A DNA stretch of 64,000 nt from Terriglobales bacterium. GTDB taxonomy: Bacteria > Acidobacteriota > Terriglobia > Terriglobales > Acidobacteriaceae. The notes below the pieces were generated by a model, which worked only from the letters and a program-made list of their open reading frames with translations, ran no database searches and was not told the DNA's origin. Made by a program: the position numbers and the translations under genes. The stretch is from assembly GCA_035764005.1 (NCBI GenBank), contig DASTZZ010000027.1, forward strand, positions 1 to 64,000, read 5' to 3'. Below, piece by piece: positions 36,448 to 58,319 of the stretch (positions are counted from its first letter, which is position 1; every line of letters begins with the position of its first letter).

Positions 36448-38262
36448 TTAGTGCAGCCACCAGAGGAACGCAAGCCCGACAATCGCTGTCCCGAAGGACA
36501 TCCACGCGACGTAGTCTCCGGGATGCCCGCTATGTGCTCGTCTTAGCCATGAACTTCCCAATTCAAGACTGCGCGTGAAGTTCACTGCGCGACCGAGCTT
36601 ATCCCGAAAGACAGTGCTCAGCGCTAGCAAGACCGCAAGCAGCAAAGCAATCACCGAATGAACAATGGACGATGAGAGATTCTCGGTTTCAGCGTTGTGC
36701 GCTGAAGTAATCTGCACGTTCTCGAGCACGCTCTGCGCGTACGCGTTCTGATTCGCGAACCCGTGCGCGGAGTCGATGGCTCTGCTTTGTATTTGCGGCA
36801 GAAACGTGAGGACGATACCAAGCAATATCAGCGCGGCGGCAGGCAAAAACATTGCCGCAGGGGTTCGTTCATGACTCTGTTCCGTTTCAGGCTTCTCTTC
36901 GATTTGAGAGGATTTGTCGCTTGGCGCCGGCTGACCCCATCCAAAAAAGATTCTGAAGGCCATTCGGAGGACCGCAGCGCTGGTGAGGACCTCAGCAAAA
37001 ATAAAGATGTAGACGAGCCAGTGCAGATGCACTGCTTCAGCAGAATGGGAAACGAAATGTTCCCCCAGCAAGGTGGCAAATGGCGGCGCGCCTGCCAAGC
37101 CCCATGCTCCCAGGATGAACAGTGCGGCGGTGTACCACATGCCACGTCCACATCCATGAAGATGGTCTTCGCCGATCTTCTGAAAGCGATGCAGCACGAT
37201 CCCTGCGCATAGGAACAGCCCACCTTTGATCACTCCATGGGAAAGCACATAGAGAACGAATCCCGCGAGTGCGCCAGGTGATAGCAAACCGACACCGACG
37301 AGCATGAGTCCGGAATGGGCAATCGTCGAAAACGCTAGCAGCCGTTTGAGGTGGTGTTCGGCATAACACATCACCGCACCGACAACTGCGGTGATCGAGG
37401 CCATGATTGTGAAAATCATGCGCAGCTCATGCGCGTGTCCTGCGAGGCTTCCCGCGAAGATCGTCCAGTAAATCCGAGCCACAGCGTAGATTCCAAGTTC
37501 CACCATCACTCCAGAGAAGAGCACGCACACAGGACTTGGCGCGACAGCATGCGCGTCGGCGAGCCAGAAATGAAAAGGAACGATGGCCGCTTTGGCGAGA
37601 TACCCAACAACGATCAGCAGAAATGCGAGCAGCACAAGCGCATCGGCATGCGTGCCCAGCGATCGTCCGACCTGCGCAAAATTGAGCGCGCCGGTACGGG
37701 CATAAAGCATCCCGATGCCCATCACGATCATGAATGCGCCGACGGTATTTACGATGGCGAAATTGAATGCGCCTTGCAGCGGAGCCGGTTCGAGTGTCTT
37801 GAGTCCGCAGAGCGCGAAAGCGGAGACGCTCATTAGCTCGAAGAAGACAAACAGATTGAAAAGGTCGCCGGTATAGCTGAAGCCGCACATGGCGGCCATG
37901 AAGATCAACATCAGCGGTTGAAAATGATTTTCTGTATCTTCAAAGATCTTCCAGGAGAAGATCAGGCCGGCAAGCGTAAGCACCGCGACCAGTAGAGCCA
38001 GCGCCGCGCCGAATGTGTCCACCACGAAGCTGATGCCGAGAGCGACGCCTCCGCTGCGCGGCCACCAATTCCCAAACCAGTACACCTGTGGCTGCGACCA
38101 GGTGCCGTGCAAAATGATCGCAGTCATCCACAAGTTCGCTGCGGCGGTCGCAATGGCGAGAAGGTCACACGCGCGGCGTCCAATGCCTTTGCCGGCGAAG
38201 GCCAGAAACGCCGCTACGATCAGCGGAATTGCAATCGGCAGTGGGATCAGTGCTGTGGTCAT
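36448..38262 (-). CDS. mrpD: Mrp/Mbh antiporter large subunit (MrpD/MbhH type)
   Basis: The 604-residue product is a NuoL/M/N-like proton-translocating subunit with about fourteen helices. Key residues are visible: the helix-5 glutamate in F-V-F-F-E-L-M-S, the helix-7 lysine in G-Y-L-A-K-A-A-I-V-P-F-H-F-W-L, and the family segment A-P-S-P-V-C-V-L-F-S-G-V-M-V. A C-terminal extension with two more helices is typical of MrpD/MbhH relatives. It is the last gene of a minus-strand operon whose order equals mbhA to mbhH. It overlaps the stop of the preceding gene by one base. No MrpA-type subunit or hydrogenase follows; the next gene is convergent GH2. Confidence 0.9.
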   Translation of the reverse strand: MTTALIPLPIAIPLIVAAFLAFAGKGIGRRACDLLAIATAAANLWMTAIILHGTWSQPQVYWFGNWWPRSGGVALGISFVVDTFGAALALLVAVLTLAGLIFSWKIFEDTENHFQPLMLIFMAAMCGFSYTGDLFNLFVFFELMSVSAFALCGLKTLEPAPLQGAFNFAIVNTVGAFMIVMGIGMLYARTGALNFAQVGRSLGTHADALVLLAFLLIVVGYLAKAAIVPFHFWLADAHAVAPSPVCVLFSGVMVELGIYAVARIYWTIFAGSLAGHAHELRMIFTIMASITAVVGAVMCYAEHHLKRLLAFSTIAHSGLMLVGVGLLSPGALAGFVLYVLSHGVIKGGLFLCAGIVLHRFQKIGEDHLHGCGRGMWYTAALFILGAWGLAGAPPFATLLGEHFVSHSAEAVHLHWLVYIFIFAEVLTSAAVLRMAFRIFFGWGQPAPSDKSSQIEEKPETEQSHERTPAAMFLPAAALILLGIVLTFLPQIQSRAIDSAHGFANQNAYAQSVLENVQITSAHNAETENLSSSIVHSVIALLLAVLLALSTVFRDKLGRAVNFTRSLELGSSWLRRAHSGHPGDYVAWMSFGTAIVGLAFLWWLH

Positions 38263-38612
38263 CAGCCCATCAGGAATCGTAGTTCCTCAGGATCAACCGT
38301 TCCCGCCAGTTCATTGGCTTTGACGACCATTGAAAGCAGGAGCGCCATCACTGCGGCTTCAACCACAATGTCGGTGAGCATCAACGCTTGTACCAGCGGA
38401 TCGACTACGCTCGTGCCGACGGGAATGTCCGCAAACACGGGAGCGGTGCCGCCCACTTTGTATCCAATCGCGAGCAGCAAAACGTAAGTTGAGGTCTGGA
38501 GAATTGCCACGCAGACGACCTGGTGCACAAGGTTCTTGCTCGTGACGATTCCATATAGTCCCCAAAGGAAGACCCATGCGGCAACTGCATACGGCAGGTA
38601 AGCCAGCATCAT
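38262..38612 (-). CDS. mrpC: Mrp antiporter subunit C (NuoK-like)
   Basis: The 116-residue product has three transmembrane helices and the NuoK/MrpC pattern. A conserved acidic residue lies in the second half of A-L-M-L-T-D-I-V-V-E-A-A-V, and the helix S-T-Y-V-L-L-L-A-I-G-Y-K comes before it. It forms the small membrane subunit next to the large antiporter subunit. Its start overlaps the stop of mrpB (ATGA type, 38609-38612) and its own stop overlaps the next start by one base. Confidence 0.9.
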   Translation of the reverse strand: MMLAYLPYAVAAWVFLWGLYGIVTSKNLVHQVVCVAILQTSTYVLLLAIGYKVGGTAPVFADIPVGTSVVDPLVQALMLTDIVVEAAVMALLLSMVVKANELAGTVDPEELRFLMG

Positions 38613-39367
38613 TTCTCCTTCCGCAGGCGTTCTTCGATGATTTCGCGCAAGTAGTTCTGCATCAACAGCACGAAACCGCCGGCGATTTCTAAGCCGACGA
38701 CGGCGCTAATCACAGCAATCGTGCCCGACGAGAACAAATCTCCTGTAGTTCCGAGAGGCACAATGTTGGTTAGAAAATGAGCGCCGAAGAGAAGCGCGGC
38801 CGTTCCGATAGCCGCATAGCCGGCGGCTCCGCCACACTCGGCGAGCTTCACGAGTGGACTGGAAACAATCGCTTCGAAGGTTTTTACATTGCCCGACAAA
38901 TAGACAACCAGCGGAGCAGAAGCCAAAATTACTCCACCCTGAAATCCGCCTCCTGGCGTGAGCTGACCGTGAGTCGCCATGTACACGCCGAAGACGATCA
39001 TGATCCCGACCATCGCCTGCATGCTCACGCGCAGCGTATCTGAGATTGGCAATGTGTCTTCCGACTTTGTCTCGCGCTTCCCCTTCTTGTCCTCGTCTCC
39101 CGCAGGACGAAAGAGCAGCAGTACGCCCAGCACTGACGCGAAGAAGATGAATTCCTCTCCAAGGGTGTCGAATGCACGATAGTCATAGTTGATGGCGTTC
39201 ACTACGTCGGTTGCATGTCGCTCGTACACCGCGACCTGCGTGACAGCGTTTCCGTAGGGTCCTCGATAATCGCCGAGAGGCGGAAGATCGCGAATTCCGC
39301 AGGCAAAGACAAACGCCAGCACCGCAGCCGAACACAAAAAGAAAGCAGTCCGCGTTCGGGAACTCAT
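38609..39367 (-). CDS. mrpB: Fused MbhE-MbhF (MrpA C-terminus plus MrpB) subunit
   Basis: The 252-residue product combines two parts. Residues 1-90 resemble MbhE / the MrpA C-terminal segment, with N-A-I-N-Y-D-Y-R-A-F-D-T-L-G-E-E before a helix. Residues about 110-245 are MrpB, with H-G-Q-L-T-P-G-G-G-F-Q-G-G-V-I and four helices. In archaeal Mbh these are separate genes (mbhE and mbhF), so this is a fusion. It keeps the correct position in the operon, between the DUF4040 (MbhD-like) gene and mrpC, with four-base overlaps on both sides. Confidence 0.88.
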   Translation of the reverse strand: MSSRTRTAFFLCSAAVLAFVFACGIRDLPPLGDYRGPYGNAVTQVAVYERHATDVVNAINYDYRAFDTLGEEFIFFASVLGVLLLFRPAGDEDKKGKRETKSEDTLPISDTLRVSMQAMVGIMIVFGVYMATHGQLTPGGGFQGGVILASAPLVVYLSGNVKTFEAIVSSPLVKLAECGGAAGYAAIGTAALLFGAHFLTNIVPLGTTGDLFSSGTIAVISAVVGLEIAGGFVLLMQNYLREIIEERLRKEK

Positions 39368-39627
39368 TTCTTCCCTTCGCGCTCACGCCGGAGATTCTGA
39401 CGACGCATCTTCGTGAGCGCCAGCATAATCATCAGCGGCAACATCACAGCTCCAATCGTGATCTGCGACAGCGCCACATCAGGAGCTTGAAATATGAAGA
39501 ACATCAGAGCGCAGATCAGGCCATAAAAGCTCAGGGTCACTACCTGCGATTTCGGATCGCGGCTTAACACGACTGCCGGAGCCACTCCGGCTACGAGCAA
39601 CAGGATGACCCATTGCAGCAATCGCAT
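39364..39627 (-). CDS. MbhD-like (DUF4040) subunit
   Basis: The 87-residue product has three short helices and the segment V-T-L-S-F-Y-G-L-I-C-A-L-M-F-F, then Q-A-P-D-V-A-L-S-Q-I-T-I-G-A, which is the DUF4040/MbhD signature equal to the first part of the MrpA C-terminal region. It has a conserved acidic residue in P-D-V-A. It starts inside the stop of mrpG and ends overlapping the next start, so translation is coupled throughout the operon. Confidence 0.88.
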   Translation of the reverse strand: MRLLQWVILLLVAGVAPAVVLSRDPKSQVVTLSFYGLICALMFFIFQAPDVALSQITIGAVMLPLMIMLALTKMRRQNLRREREGKK

Positions 39628-39980
39628 CAGCCTTGCTCCTCTTCTACTCTTTCGTCAGAAGAGAGAATCGGGACTTCTTCGCCCTCCGCAGGATCCCAAT
39701 CTGGGACTTCCGCAATGCGGAATGCGCGTGCAGCCGCGTGCGTCACAATGGTGTTCATGCTCACCAGGACCAGAACGACAAAGAGCGCTTTGAACGATTC
39801 CGGCTTGAGTCCTCTTTGAATAAAGATTGCAATGCAGATCAGCAATGAGCTCAGCGAAGCGGGGGGAGCGATGTAGTGCATGCGCTGATAGGGATCGTGG
39901 ACCCGCAGCATTCCCAAAACGGAGATGATCGTGATCAGCACTGCGGCAGCGAGAAAGACGTCGATCAGAATGGCCTTCAT
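39627..39980 (-). CDS. mrpG: Mrp antiporter subunit G
   Basis: The 117-residue product has three helices and the MnhG/MrpG signature: F-L-A-A-A-V-L-I-T-I-I-S-V-L-G-M-L-R, then D-P-Y-Q-R-M-H-Y, then T-H-A-A-A-R-A-F after the last helix. The C-terminal 30 residues are acidic and cytoplasmic. It overlaps mrpF upstream by four bases. Confidence 0.9.
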   Translation of the reverse strand: MKAILIDVFLAAAVLITIISVLGMLRVHDPYQRMHYIAPPASLSSLLICIAIFIQRGLKPESFKALFVVLVLVSMNTIVTHAAARAFRIAEVPDWDPAEGEEVPILSSDERVEEEQG

Positions 39981-40231
39981 CGCAGATGTCGCGCAAAGAA
40001 ACGCGCGAAGACGATTCCGCCGCCGAAAGACATCAAAGCCAGCGTGATCGCGAGGTCCATCATCGGCATGCGGTTGAATGCCAGTGTCAGCAGCATCATC
40101 AGTAGCGTGATCACAACGCCCGCCATATAGAACGAAACCAGACGCTGACGCGGATCGCCTTTGCTCGCCAGCCAGGTGAGAGGCACCAGAACGAAGATCA
40201 TCACTTGGGCTGCAAGCTCCCAGACATTCAT
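39977..40231 (-). CDS. mrpF: Mrp antiporter subunit F
   Basis: The frame is open upstream to 40348, but the ATG at 40231 lies in the ATGA overlap with the mrpE stop (40228-40231), which defines the start. The 84-residue product has three helices and the MrpF features D-P-R-Q-R-L-V in the first loop and M-M-D-L-A-I-T-L-A-L-M-S-F in the last helix, then F-A-R-F-F. Confidence 0.9.
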   Translation of the reverse strand: MNVWELAAQVMIFVLVPLTWLASKGDPRQRLVSFYMAGVVITLLMMLLTLAFNRMPMMDLAITLALMSFGGGIVFARFFARHLR

Positions 40232-40710
40232 GGCAAAGCTCCTAAGTCTTGCGTCATCTTCGGAACTGAGCTGCGCTCGATCTGATGAAAGAGGAGCGTC
40301 TGATCGCTTGCGTTTATGCCCAGGACAATGAAATTCGGCGCCGCACACGTGTATCCAGCGGCAAGCACTCGACGCGCATTTGCCCGGGGATCGTCTTTAT
40401 CGCCGGCATCGAAACGCGCAATTCGGAAAAGGGACTTCGCCGGTTTGATGCCGATCAAGTCTTTCGCCGCAACGACAGCGATCTCCCACGTTCCGCTCAG
40501 CACGTACCACGGAAGCCGCCAGATCGCGAGCAAGTTCGATGCGGTGGGCCCAAATCTGGCGGGATACTGGAGATTGATCACCGCCATCCCACCCGTCGCG
40601 AGCACGGCTCCGATGGTGCCAATGAGGAGTTCATGGGTGGCAAACGATCCGGAAAAAACGATCCAGAACAGATAGAACGTGACCACGCTTATGCTTACCA
40701 ACAATGTCAT
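40228..40710 (-). CDS. mrpE: Mrp antiporter subunit E
   Basis: The 160-residue product has two N-terminal helices (F-Y-L-F-W-I-V-F-S-G-S-F and L-L-I-G-T-I-G-A-V-L-A) and a W-Y-V-L-S-G-T-W-E-I-A-V-V-A-A-K-D segment typical of MrpE, followed by a cytoplasmic domain with N-F-I-V-L-G-I-N. It is the first gene of the seven-gene operon, so the promoter should lie in 40711-40944, shared with the divergent rhodanese gene. Confidence 0.9.
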   Translation of the reverse strand: MTLLVSISVVTFYLFWIVFSGSFATHELLIGTIGAVLATGGMAVINLQYPARFGPTASNLLAIWRLPWYVLSGTWEIAVVAAKDLIGIKPAKSLFRIARFDAGDKDDPRANARRVLAAGYTCAAPNFIVLGINASDQTLLFHQIERSSVPKMTQDLGALP

Positions 40711-40944: not shown

Positions 40945-41292
40945 ATGTCAGATGATCTAAGAATTTCCATCGATGACCTGCGAAAACGAATGAAAGCGGG
41001 AGAAGACTCCACAATCCTCGACGTTCGCAACCCGACGGCATGGGCAGAGTCGGACGTAATGGTTCCGAATGCGCGCCGCGTTCCTCTCGATGATTTTGAA
41101 AGCCACCTTTACGAAATTCCCAAAAATAAACCGATTGTCGCGTATTGCACTTGACCAAACGAAGGTTCAAGCGCCAGTTTGGCGCAAAAGCTTCGCGAAC
41201 GTGGCTTTCAGAAGGTTTGGGCTCTTAAAGGCGGCTTCGATGCATGGCGCAATGCCGGTCTTCCTGTGGAGTCAAAGCTGGAGGCGGCGTAG
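40945..41292 (+). CDS. Rhodanese-domain protein with in-frame TGA, candidate selenoprotein
   Basis: The ATG at 40945 has AGGGGG at 40931-40936. The frame gives 69 residues, then TGA at 41152-41154, then 45 more residues to TAG at 41290-41292, about 115 in all. Both halves are rhodanese. Before the TGA are T-I-L-D-V-R-N-P-T, N-A-R-R-V-P-L-D-D and P-I-V-A-Y-C-T. After it come P-N-E-G-S-S-A, L-R-E-R-G-F-Q-K-V and L-K-G-G-F-D-A-W. Known single-domain relatives read Y-C-T/S-C-P-N-E, so the TGA replaces the second Cys. The first Cys, the usual sulphur acceptor, is kept. A hairpin fitting the bacterial SECIS model follows (separate entry). Reading the TGA as selenocysteine gives an intact C-x-U protein. 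The alternative is a nonsense mutation. No sel genes are in the window. Confidence 0.6.
41155..41195 (+). promoter_or_regulatory. Candidate bacterial SECIS hairpin
   Basis: Directly after the TGA is a two-tier stem-loop. The outer stem is CGAAG (41160-41164) with CTTCG (41191-41195). An internal loop separates it from the inner stem GCGCCA (41171-41176) with TGGCGC (41180-41185). The apical loop is GTT (41177-41179). The apical loop begins 22 nt after the TGA and its first base is G. Both fit the published bacterial SECIS description (apical loop about 16-37 nt from UGA, G among the first two loop bases). A second, competing pairing CCAAAC with GTTTGG is also possible. Confidence 0.5.
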
Positions 41293-58145: not shown

Positions 58146-58190
58146 CCCAGCACTTACGTGCTGGGCTATCATATGTCGCGCCTCCGGCGC
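58146..58190. repeat. Paired hairpins of REP type
   Basis: CCCAGCAC with GTGCTGGG (58146-58165, loop TTAC), then GCGCC with GGCGC (58178-58190, loop TCC). Two adjacent hairpins separated by 12 bases are the layout of repetitive extragenic palindromes. The surrounding 58006-58319 has no gene. Confidence 0.55.
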
Positions 58191-58319
58191 TTTGGGCTGC
58201 GTTCGCTCGCCTCTCACAATGCTCACGTTCACGCTTGGTAACTCGCAGTGAACGGCGCGCGGACCCAGCGGACTTTTTATGGTTGATGGGGTGGTATACA
58301 AGTCGGATTCACGTTCAGT

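Follow-up and report, generated by a model that had tools for sequence, protein, structure and literature searches.

What could a Mrp-type membrane complex do that has neither MrpA nor a hydrogenase? The question is raised by a seven-gene operon in a 64,000-nucleotide stretch of DNA from a Terriglobales bacterium (contig DASTZZ010000027.1 of assembly GCA_035764005.1, positions 1 to 64,000), hereafter the window. Read on the minus strand from 40710 to 36448, the operon consists of mrpE, mrpF, mrpG, mbhD, a fusion of mbhE and mrpB, mrpC and mrpD. All seven genes lie in the order, on the strand and within the span proposed by a sequence-only reading, and the order matches that of the membrane half of the membrane-bound hydrogenase Mbh, as that reading held, and also that of Mbs. 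From the gene content and the residues described below, we conclude that the operon probably encodes a free-standing, MrpA-less, one-module Mrp-type cation/proton exchanger, with a predicted stoichiometry of one H+ per cation. The genes are as follows.

40228..40710, minus strand: MrpE (MbhA-like), 160 residues; Pfam MnhE 21.4 bits, under the 27-bit cut-off, named from gene order and relatives
39977..40231, minus strand: MrpF (MbhB-like), 84 residues; Pfam MrpF_PhaF 28.1 bits; its ATG, at 40231, overlaps mrpE by 4 bases
39627..39980, minus strand: MrpG (MbhC-like), 117 residues; Pfam PhaG_MnhG 55 bits
39364..39627, minus strand: MbhD (DUF4040), free-standing, 87 residues; Pfam MbhD 61.3 bits
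38609..39367, minus strand: fusion of MbhE and MrpB (MbhF), 252 residues; Pfam MnhB 74.1 bits and MbhE 25.8 bits, the latter 1.2 bits under its cut-off
38262..38612, minus strand: MrpC (MbhG/NuoK-like), 116 residues; Pfam Oxidored_q2 63.1 bits
36448..38262, minus strand: MrpD, the sole antiporter-like subunit, 604 residues; Pfam Proton_antipo_M 175.1 bits

Neighboring genes overlap at every junction, as had been claimed, by 4, 4, 1, 4, 4 and 1 bases in order. The locus belongs by gene content to the Mrp (CPA3) family, since MrpB, MrpC, MrpD, MrpE, MrpF and MrpG all have homologues within the operon. The fusion protein matches the MbsE profile over residues 11-244, and MrpD ends in two C-terminal helices, at 530-551 and 581-603.

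The whole assembly to which the window belongs (as contig C27; 5.1 Mb, 97.49% complete) was profile-searched. No MrpA was found anywhere in it with PF13244 or PF00361: the MbhD domain (PF13244) has a single match, and three of the four matches to Proton_antipo_M (PF00361) lie inside the complex I cluster. Nor did the assembly yield a NiFe-hydrogenase large subunit, apart from one match to PF00374 at 25 bits, under the cut-off of 25.8, in an ORF that we named NuoD-like by eye, as we did the NuoE- and NuoC-like ORFs between which it lies. PF00146, the family of NuoH and MbhM, has one match, inside the nuo cluster, and no second linking subunit of this kind was found in the assembly besides the complex I NuoH. 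The claim that the operon has no hydrogenase and no MrpA thus holds across the whole assembly, and an unlinked hydrogenase or an unlinked MrpA, both considered as candidates, were rejected because these searches of the assembly did not find them, the lone PF00374 match being the NuoD-like ORF.

The sequence-only reading had offered two functions, a stand-alone antiporter or a module coupled to redox subunits encoded elsewhere. The second would make the operon the membrane arm of an Mbh-type hydrogenase with a distant catalytic half, which is in keeping with the Mbh A-H gene order and with MbhH being the best PDB sequence match of MrpD. Such a complex has a NiFe-type large subunit and an MbhM/NuoH-type link, and we found neither in the operon or the genome: the only large-subunit match is NuoD-like, and the sole NuoH/MbhM member belongs to complex I. 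The remaining 3% of the genome could hide the missing half, but for the 97% at hand the idea is already unsupported and we consider its probability close to negligible. Of the two functions, the stand-alone antiporter fits better, given that the operon is free-standing and that MrpA was not found genome-wide. Groups 1 and 2 of the Mrp family carry a full MrpA, either separate or fused to MrpB, which this operon lacks; the suggestion that ordinary group 2 operons might share its layout therefore failed, since group 2 has the fused MrpA. The operon agrees with group 3 as given in PMC8415708 (no mrpA, only mrpD, in at least one copy); in another review, an irregular order of the genes is what marks group 3 (PMC5703873).

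This locus is one of many, its layout being widespread among bacteria. Among 61 genomes (the window's own and 60 others related at the rank of genus, family or order), six carry the compact operon (G000, G004, G005, G009, G038 and G041), namely the window's and five of the relatives, and the genes flanking it differ among the six. A wider scan, queried with the fusion protein and with V[NT]A[IV]N[YF]DY and [GA]FDTLGEE as peptide patterns, gave 221 confirmed stretches, the best 80 of which were kept as named loci. In all 80 the detected subunits stand in the same order, with the MbhE+MrpB fusion, which is partly built in by the patterns; an order kept in 80 of 80 loci is not due to chance. All seven subunits were detected in 66 of the 80, and antiporter-like ORFs number one in 75, one plus a fragment in one, and none detected in four. 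The host titles include Streptomyces, Streptacidiphilus, Kitasatospora, Solirubrobacterales and Pseudonocardiales, which we take to be Actinomycetota, together with Acidobacteriota, Minicystis, Polyangium, Geomonas, Geomesophilobacter, Acetobacteraceae, Roseomonas, Phycisphaerales, Nitrospira and others. Bin labels may be wrong for some hosts; L042, titled Rhodanobacteraceae, groups with acidobacteria in the tree on which the FDH label is counted below.

Within the Acidobacteriota, an MbhE-domain match was found in 57 of 297 genomes, a survey that may undercount the compact type, the window's own MbhE match scoring 26.6 bits against a cut-off of 27. Twenty regions from this survey were read: one is compact (L161), eight bear MrpA (one of these also carries a second, multi-D operon), ten have two, fused or three D-like subunits, and the last, L156, has a fused layout as far as seen and ends at a contig edge. 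In two MrpA-less acidobacterial operons, a single frame of about 1050 residues holds a pair of MrpD-like domains (L152:10062-13205 and L157:5052-8216), and one acidobacterial contig (L148:4782-17740) holds an MrpA-type operon together with a divergent second set consisting of MbhD, E/B, C and several D-like genes.

We then compared the charged residues of the compact operons with those of other subunits. The MrpD set consisted of the window and 71 loci (72 sequences), to which L161 was moved from the others, giving 73 members against 54 other antiporter-like subunits; ten matched stretches shorter than 450 residues (seven loci) were left out, and four loci had no MrpD match. Mapped onto BpMrpD, window residues E142, K224, E255 and E401 correspond to E137 in transmembrane helix (TM) 5, K219 in TM7, K250 in TM8 and K392 in TM12, respectively. 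E142 and K224, the TM5 Glu and TM7 Lys of MrpD, are each invariant (73/73), and loss of this pair abolishes antiport in characterized Mrp complexes, according to PMC5703873. The two other lysines behave differently. Lys is absent from the TM8 position in all 73 members, where 72 of them have E (53), Q (6), D (4), S (3), A (3) or V, G and T (1 each) and L161 adds a further E; it is present in 49 of the 54 other subunits and in five of five MrpD-like PDB chains. The TM12 Lys is kept in 34 of the 73 and lost in 39, as against 53 of 54 others. In published models (PMC7419157), the TM8 Lys is the only protonatable TM8 residue of MrpD, and the TM12 Lys pairs with the TM5 Glu of MrpA; the TM12 Lys would be free to vary here because that MrpA partner is missing.

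Other charges are retained or specific to the family. R64, D67 and E71 of the fusion are present in 83 of 83 members, D67 and E71 lying inside the search pattern, and correspond to AfMrpA R789, D792 and E796 by spacing and motif rather than by alignment with that chain; these AfMrpA residues are described as the cation exit (PMC7419157). E72 of the fusion adjoins E71 and occurs in 83 of 83 members and two of 22 others, which is again partly a consequence of how the search was constructed. In MrpC, D81 is found in 80 of 81 members and none of 22 others and adjoins T80, the counterpart of AfMrpC T75. MrpD has family-specific charges at E365 (71/73) and D583 (70/73). Two further candidates did not survive: MrpC E85 as a NuoK-type Glu was dropped, being kept in only 39 of 81, and the family specificity of MrpD H316 (71/73) was weakened by a His in nine of the 54 others.

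Several residues weigh against a coupled exchanger. The window MbhD has Q55 at the place of MbhD E69 (in the family, Q in 48 and E in 29 of 83) and G59 at the place of AfMrpA E706; MrpC lacks the two cation-site histidines (T40 and Y43 in the window, S/T/A at 40 in the family); and no more than 33 of 80 members have an acidic residue at the Asp position of the 'DR' motif in MrpF. Judging from these changes in MbhD, MrpC and MrpF, cation transport may be altered or lost, and replacement of the TM8 Lys could mean a blocked or a different proton path. The same losses, namely the TM8 and TM12 lysines, the MrpC histidines and the carboxylates replaced by Q or G in the window MbhD, would suit a proton-only or weakly coupled module acting as a regulated proton or cation leak without true cation coupling. 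However, the Glu/Lys pair, the matched exit residues, MrpC D81 and MrpD E365 and D583 have all been kept, and we hold such a leak to be very unlikely. The conserved pair, the exit residues and the family-specific charges argue for a defined, coupled function.

On the reading that the operon encodes an exchanger, we infer antiport activity of the following kind. MrpD would be the single proton-handling subunit. The MbhE half of the fusion would form the coupling unit together with MrpC and MbhD, and the MrpB half would form the unit of the cation path together with MrpE, MrpF and MrpG. The invariant Glu(TM5)/Lys(TM7) pair of MrpD would couple the movement of one proton to that of one cation, which would pass along the MrpC/MbhD/MbhE face and exit at R64/D67/E71, and MrpC D81 and fusion E72 would sit beside the residues matched to the cation exit. 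For complexes with two antiporter-like subunits, 2H+ per Na+ has been proposed (PMC9568556 and PMC7419157); a 1:1 stoichiometry is expected here because MrpA and its proton path are missing. Exchange would then be near electroneutral and would be driven by the pH or cation gradient, not by voltage. The role may be balance of cytoplasmic pH and cations under acid or stress, as proposed for the MrpA-less Mrp of P. furiosus.

The sequence-only reading had asked for a phylogeny, and the outcome is mixed. In a FastTree analysis of 132 antiporter-like sequences, the 73 compact-operon MrpD formed one clade with a support of 0.83 on a long branch. Its neighbors are the canonical group 1/2 MrpD, including those of the three Mrp structures, and outside it fall MbhH, MbsH and NuoL/M/N as well as the main multi-D groups; the topology from an unfinished iqtree run, which carries no support values, agrees. 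The profile scores point elsewhere. The first D-like subunit of most multi-D operons scores up to 420 bits against the family profile, versus 248-326 for group 1/2 MrpD, and hhalign gives 613 versus 510 for the same comparison. Similarly, the MrpC profile scores 67-109 bits in multi-D MrpA-less operons versus 37-52 in MrpA-bearing ones, and MbhD also scores higher in the former. A home with canonical MrpD, as the tree suggests, is tentative, the support being modest, the branch long and the profile scores favoring the multi-D first subunit; tree and profile scores point in different directions.

The fold of MrpD was predicted with AF2 from 60 homologues (pLDDT 92.1, pTM 0.94; an earlier model from six sequences had a pLDDT of 71.9). 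The model aligns with BpMrpD (7qru_D) over 484 residues with a Z score of 45.2 and an rmsd of 2.0, and with 6z16_D and 7d3u_D at Z scores of 43.5 and 41.2; the highest Z score, 45.8, belongs to an integrative model, 9a6h_B. By Foldseek, MbhH ranks fourth (3.1e-22), against 7.6e-23 and 2.2e-22 for two MrpD chains, and it is not among the best 50 matches of the structural alignment; the fold searches do not separate MrpD from MbhH. Residues 2-587 of the model align with E. coli NuoL (7z84_L) over 516 residues (Z 41.1, rmsd 3.0), so that some of the C-terminal extension is matched there in structure. The family profile aligns with MrpA end to end (columns 18-606 on 16-589), whereas its alignment with group 1/2 MrpD, a shorter protein, runs out with that protein at column 531. 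By itself, the extension gives profile probabilities of 0.7 against MrpA and 45 against the genome's NuoL. The extension resembles NuoL/MrpA, but the case for its homology to TM15-16 of MrpA is weak from these values and rests on the end-to-end profile alignment and the structural alignment with NuoL up to residue 587.

What, if anything, does the complex work with? Neighbors were counted within 5 kb of 81 loci (the 80 named loci and L023), for which 5 kb of flank was available upstream in 54 and downstream in 55. A formate dehydrogenase (FDH) alpha gene lies within this distance in nine (L056, L060, L061, L063, L067, L068, L086, L107 and L109), partial at contig ends in L056, L061 and L068. 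In the other six, FDH beta and gamma accompany alpha, with some parts just past 5 kb. A tenth locus, L097, has an NrfD-like gamma alone at a contig end, and four others have a formate transporter (FNT) gene (L023, L039, L040 and L098). Beyond the 5-kb limit, FNT was seen at 5.9 kb in L067 and at 9.3 kb in L088. A molybdopterin-enzyme fragment 155 bases from the operon in L108, with 32% identity, was not counted as FDH. Among the representatives scanned with Pfam and NCBIfam, FDH-N was found for the L107 alpha subunit, NrfD (Pfam) for the L107 gamma and FNT for L023, and FDH-beta-like proteins under the model cut-off were found in L107, L067 and L060. Other recurrent neighbors are a short-chain dehydrogenase (14 loci), an enolase-like protein (8), a luciferase-like protein (7), GH15 (7) and a TPP enzyme (5).

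The FDH genes beside nine of 81 loci hint at a partner, which is a further point against a purely free-standing exchanger. The complex may work with an apparently cytoplasmic FDH (alpha, Fe-S beta and NrfD-like gamma) and a formate transporter, either in a loose proton-balancing partnership or as a formate-driven redox pump. In L067 the alpha, beta and gamma genes immediately precede mrpE and share its strand, and in L023, which belongs to the window's genus, the FNT gene starts about 50 bases after mrpD. L067:1565-12824 can be described as a formate-Mrp cluster, with FDH genes, a complete compact operon and FNT at 1565-2320 on the other strand. Placed on the tree, the FDH label requires seven parsimony changes for ten tips, indicating that the association was gained or lost repeatedly; 300 shuffles had a mean of 9.6 and a minimum of 7, so it is also partly inherited. 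Rough arithmetic from 35 FDH copies over the cut-off, plus a few partial ones, and a mean genome size of 5.6 Mb predicts about 0.1 adjacent pairs by chance, a figure given without a probability, the loci being related and the feature having been picked after inspection.

Against such a partnership, orientation varies among the loci, and 71 of the 81 have no FDH in the flank seen, although many flanks are short. FDH-N over the cut-off occurs in 28 of 51 host genomes (that of the window, plus 50 from the 80 named loci, picked so as to include all nine FDH loci). Among the 61 genomes it occurs in four of six with the operon, one of those without FDH being 83% complete, and in 19 of 55 without the operon. 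This is no clear co-occurrence, and we rejected it as evidence that the two work together, for which adjacency speaks more strongly. The cytoplasmic place of the FDH is deduced from the start of one alpha subunit (L107). No FDH or FNT gene was found beside the window operon among the window ORFs read or Pfam-scanned. The window genome does hold FDH-N matches over the cut-off on contigs C69 and C24 and two FNT matches on C2 and C105; its alpha-beta-gamma set on C24 is similar to that of L107 (55, 51 and 39% identity) and is unlinked to the operon. NrfD is not known to be homologous to the MbhM/NuoH link, which also counts against the partnership. Overall, we regard work with FDH as unlikely.

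A bolder formulation joins these observations: an unrecognized bacterial subfamily in which one charge-inverted MrpD with MrpA/NuoL-like C-terminal helices would do the work of two subunits, and in which several lineages would have joined an apparently cytoplasmic FDH (alpha-beta-NrfD) and a formate transporter to make a formate-linked energy converter without hydrogenase or MrpA. We consider this quite unlikely in its entirety.

Around the operon itself, a GH2 gene is present next to mrpD, as had been stated; it does not follow on the same strand but is convergent on the plus strand, 12 bases from the operon end. The other flank, upstream of mrpE and divergent from it, holds a rhodanese-like gene (40945-41289, plus strand), and the description of the operon as free-standing stood. 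Folding of the operon's leader RNA gave no signal (z 1.37). The rhodanese-like gene has an in-frame TGA at 41152-41154, just after 'YCT'. If this is read as selenocysteine, the product is a 115-residue rhodanese that matches PF00581 with 58.9 bits, versus 30.5 for the truncated ORF. Downstream of the TGA lies a hairpin (z -2.19; six of 200 shuffles as good; no Rfam match). The genome encodes a tRNA-Sec (65 bits), and in-frame TGA is also seen in FDH genes. The gene is thus a candidate selenocysteine rhodanese. Elsewhere in the window, an Acido-Lenti-1 RNA was found at 58146-58191 (plus strand, 63.1 bits), a sign of an acidobacterial origin.

How protons and sodium are coupled in Mrp, and by homology how redox energy is coupled in complex I, is unsettled, and current models (PMC7419157 and PMC9568556) give a large part to the lysines of TM8 and TM12 and to the presence of two antiporter-like subunits. 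The compact operon is a widespread natural variant with a single antiporter-like subunit, no TM8 Lys and an optional TM12 Lys. If the compact complex still exchanges ions, these models will have to be revised. Whether it moves one proton per cation or two would bear directly on the idea of one proton per antiporter-like subunit, and the operon could show the minimal needs of a working exchanger. The recurrent FDH neighborhood provides a lead on the physiological role in soil bacteria.

How does the operon compare with known systems? No description of this subfamily, its residue changes or its FDH neighborhood was found in the open-licence literature searched. The kind is known, since an MrpA-less stand-alone Mrp has been reported in one archaeon. 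Multi-D or irregular group 3 operons have also been published for several bacteria (PMC5703873, PMC7784846 and PMC13274419). For the candidate phylum NPL-UPA2, PMC6305446 lists a bacterial cluster, MrpEFGBBBCD, that likewise has one D and lacks A; by this listing it differs in having three B-like genes, and the same genome has a separate MrpDD. The multi-D operons of Acidobacteriota (L018, L022 and L150-L160) are likewise MrpA-less and nearly all share the E-F-G-MbhD-E-B-C-D order, but each has at least two antiporter-like subunits, with L156 cut off by a contig edge. The group 1/2 Mrp of the Bacillus, Anoxybacillus and Dietzia structures are the tree neighbors of MrpD and head the fold lists; unlike the compact operon, they have a full MrpA and two antiporter-like subunits, and their gene order and proton-path residues differ.

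The Mbs and Mbh of Pyrococcus share the subunit order. MbsE is also an E+F fusion, and the best PDB matches are MbsE for the fusion, MbsG for MrpC and MbsD for MbhD. In contrast to these complexes, the compact operon has no redox half, and both lysines, of TM8 and of TM12, are retained in MbhH and MbsH. P. furiosus PF1147-53, which the sequence-only reading did not mention, is an MrpA-less stand-alone 'group 3' Mrp that affects acid sensitivity and was read as exporting H+ against Na+ entry (PMC8415708). Like the window operon, it is free-standing, with seven genes (E-F-G-B-B'-C-D), no MrpA, one antiporter-like subunit and no redox module. The two differ in their fusions: by the same source, P. 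furiosus joins MbhD to MbhE and leaves MbhF on its own, whereas in the window MbhE is joined to MrpB/MbhF and MbhD stands alone. The closest layouts are that of Mbs, with E and F fused, rather than of Mbh proper, and, as a free-standing unit, that of PF1147-53.

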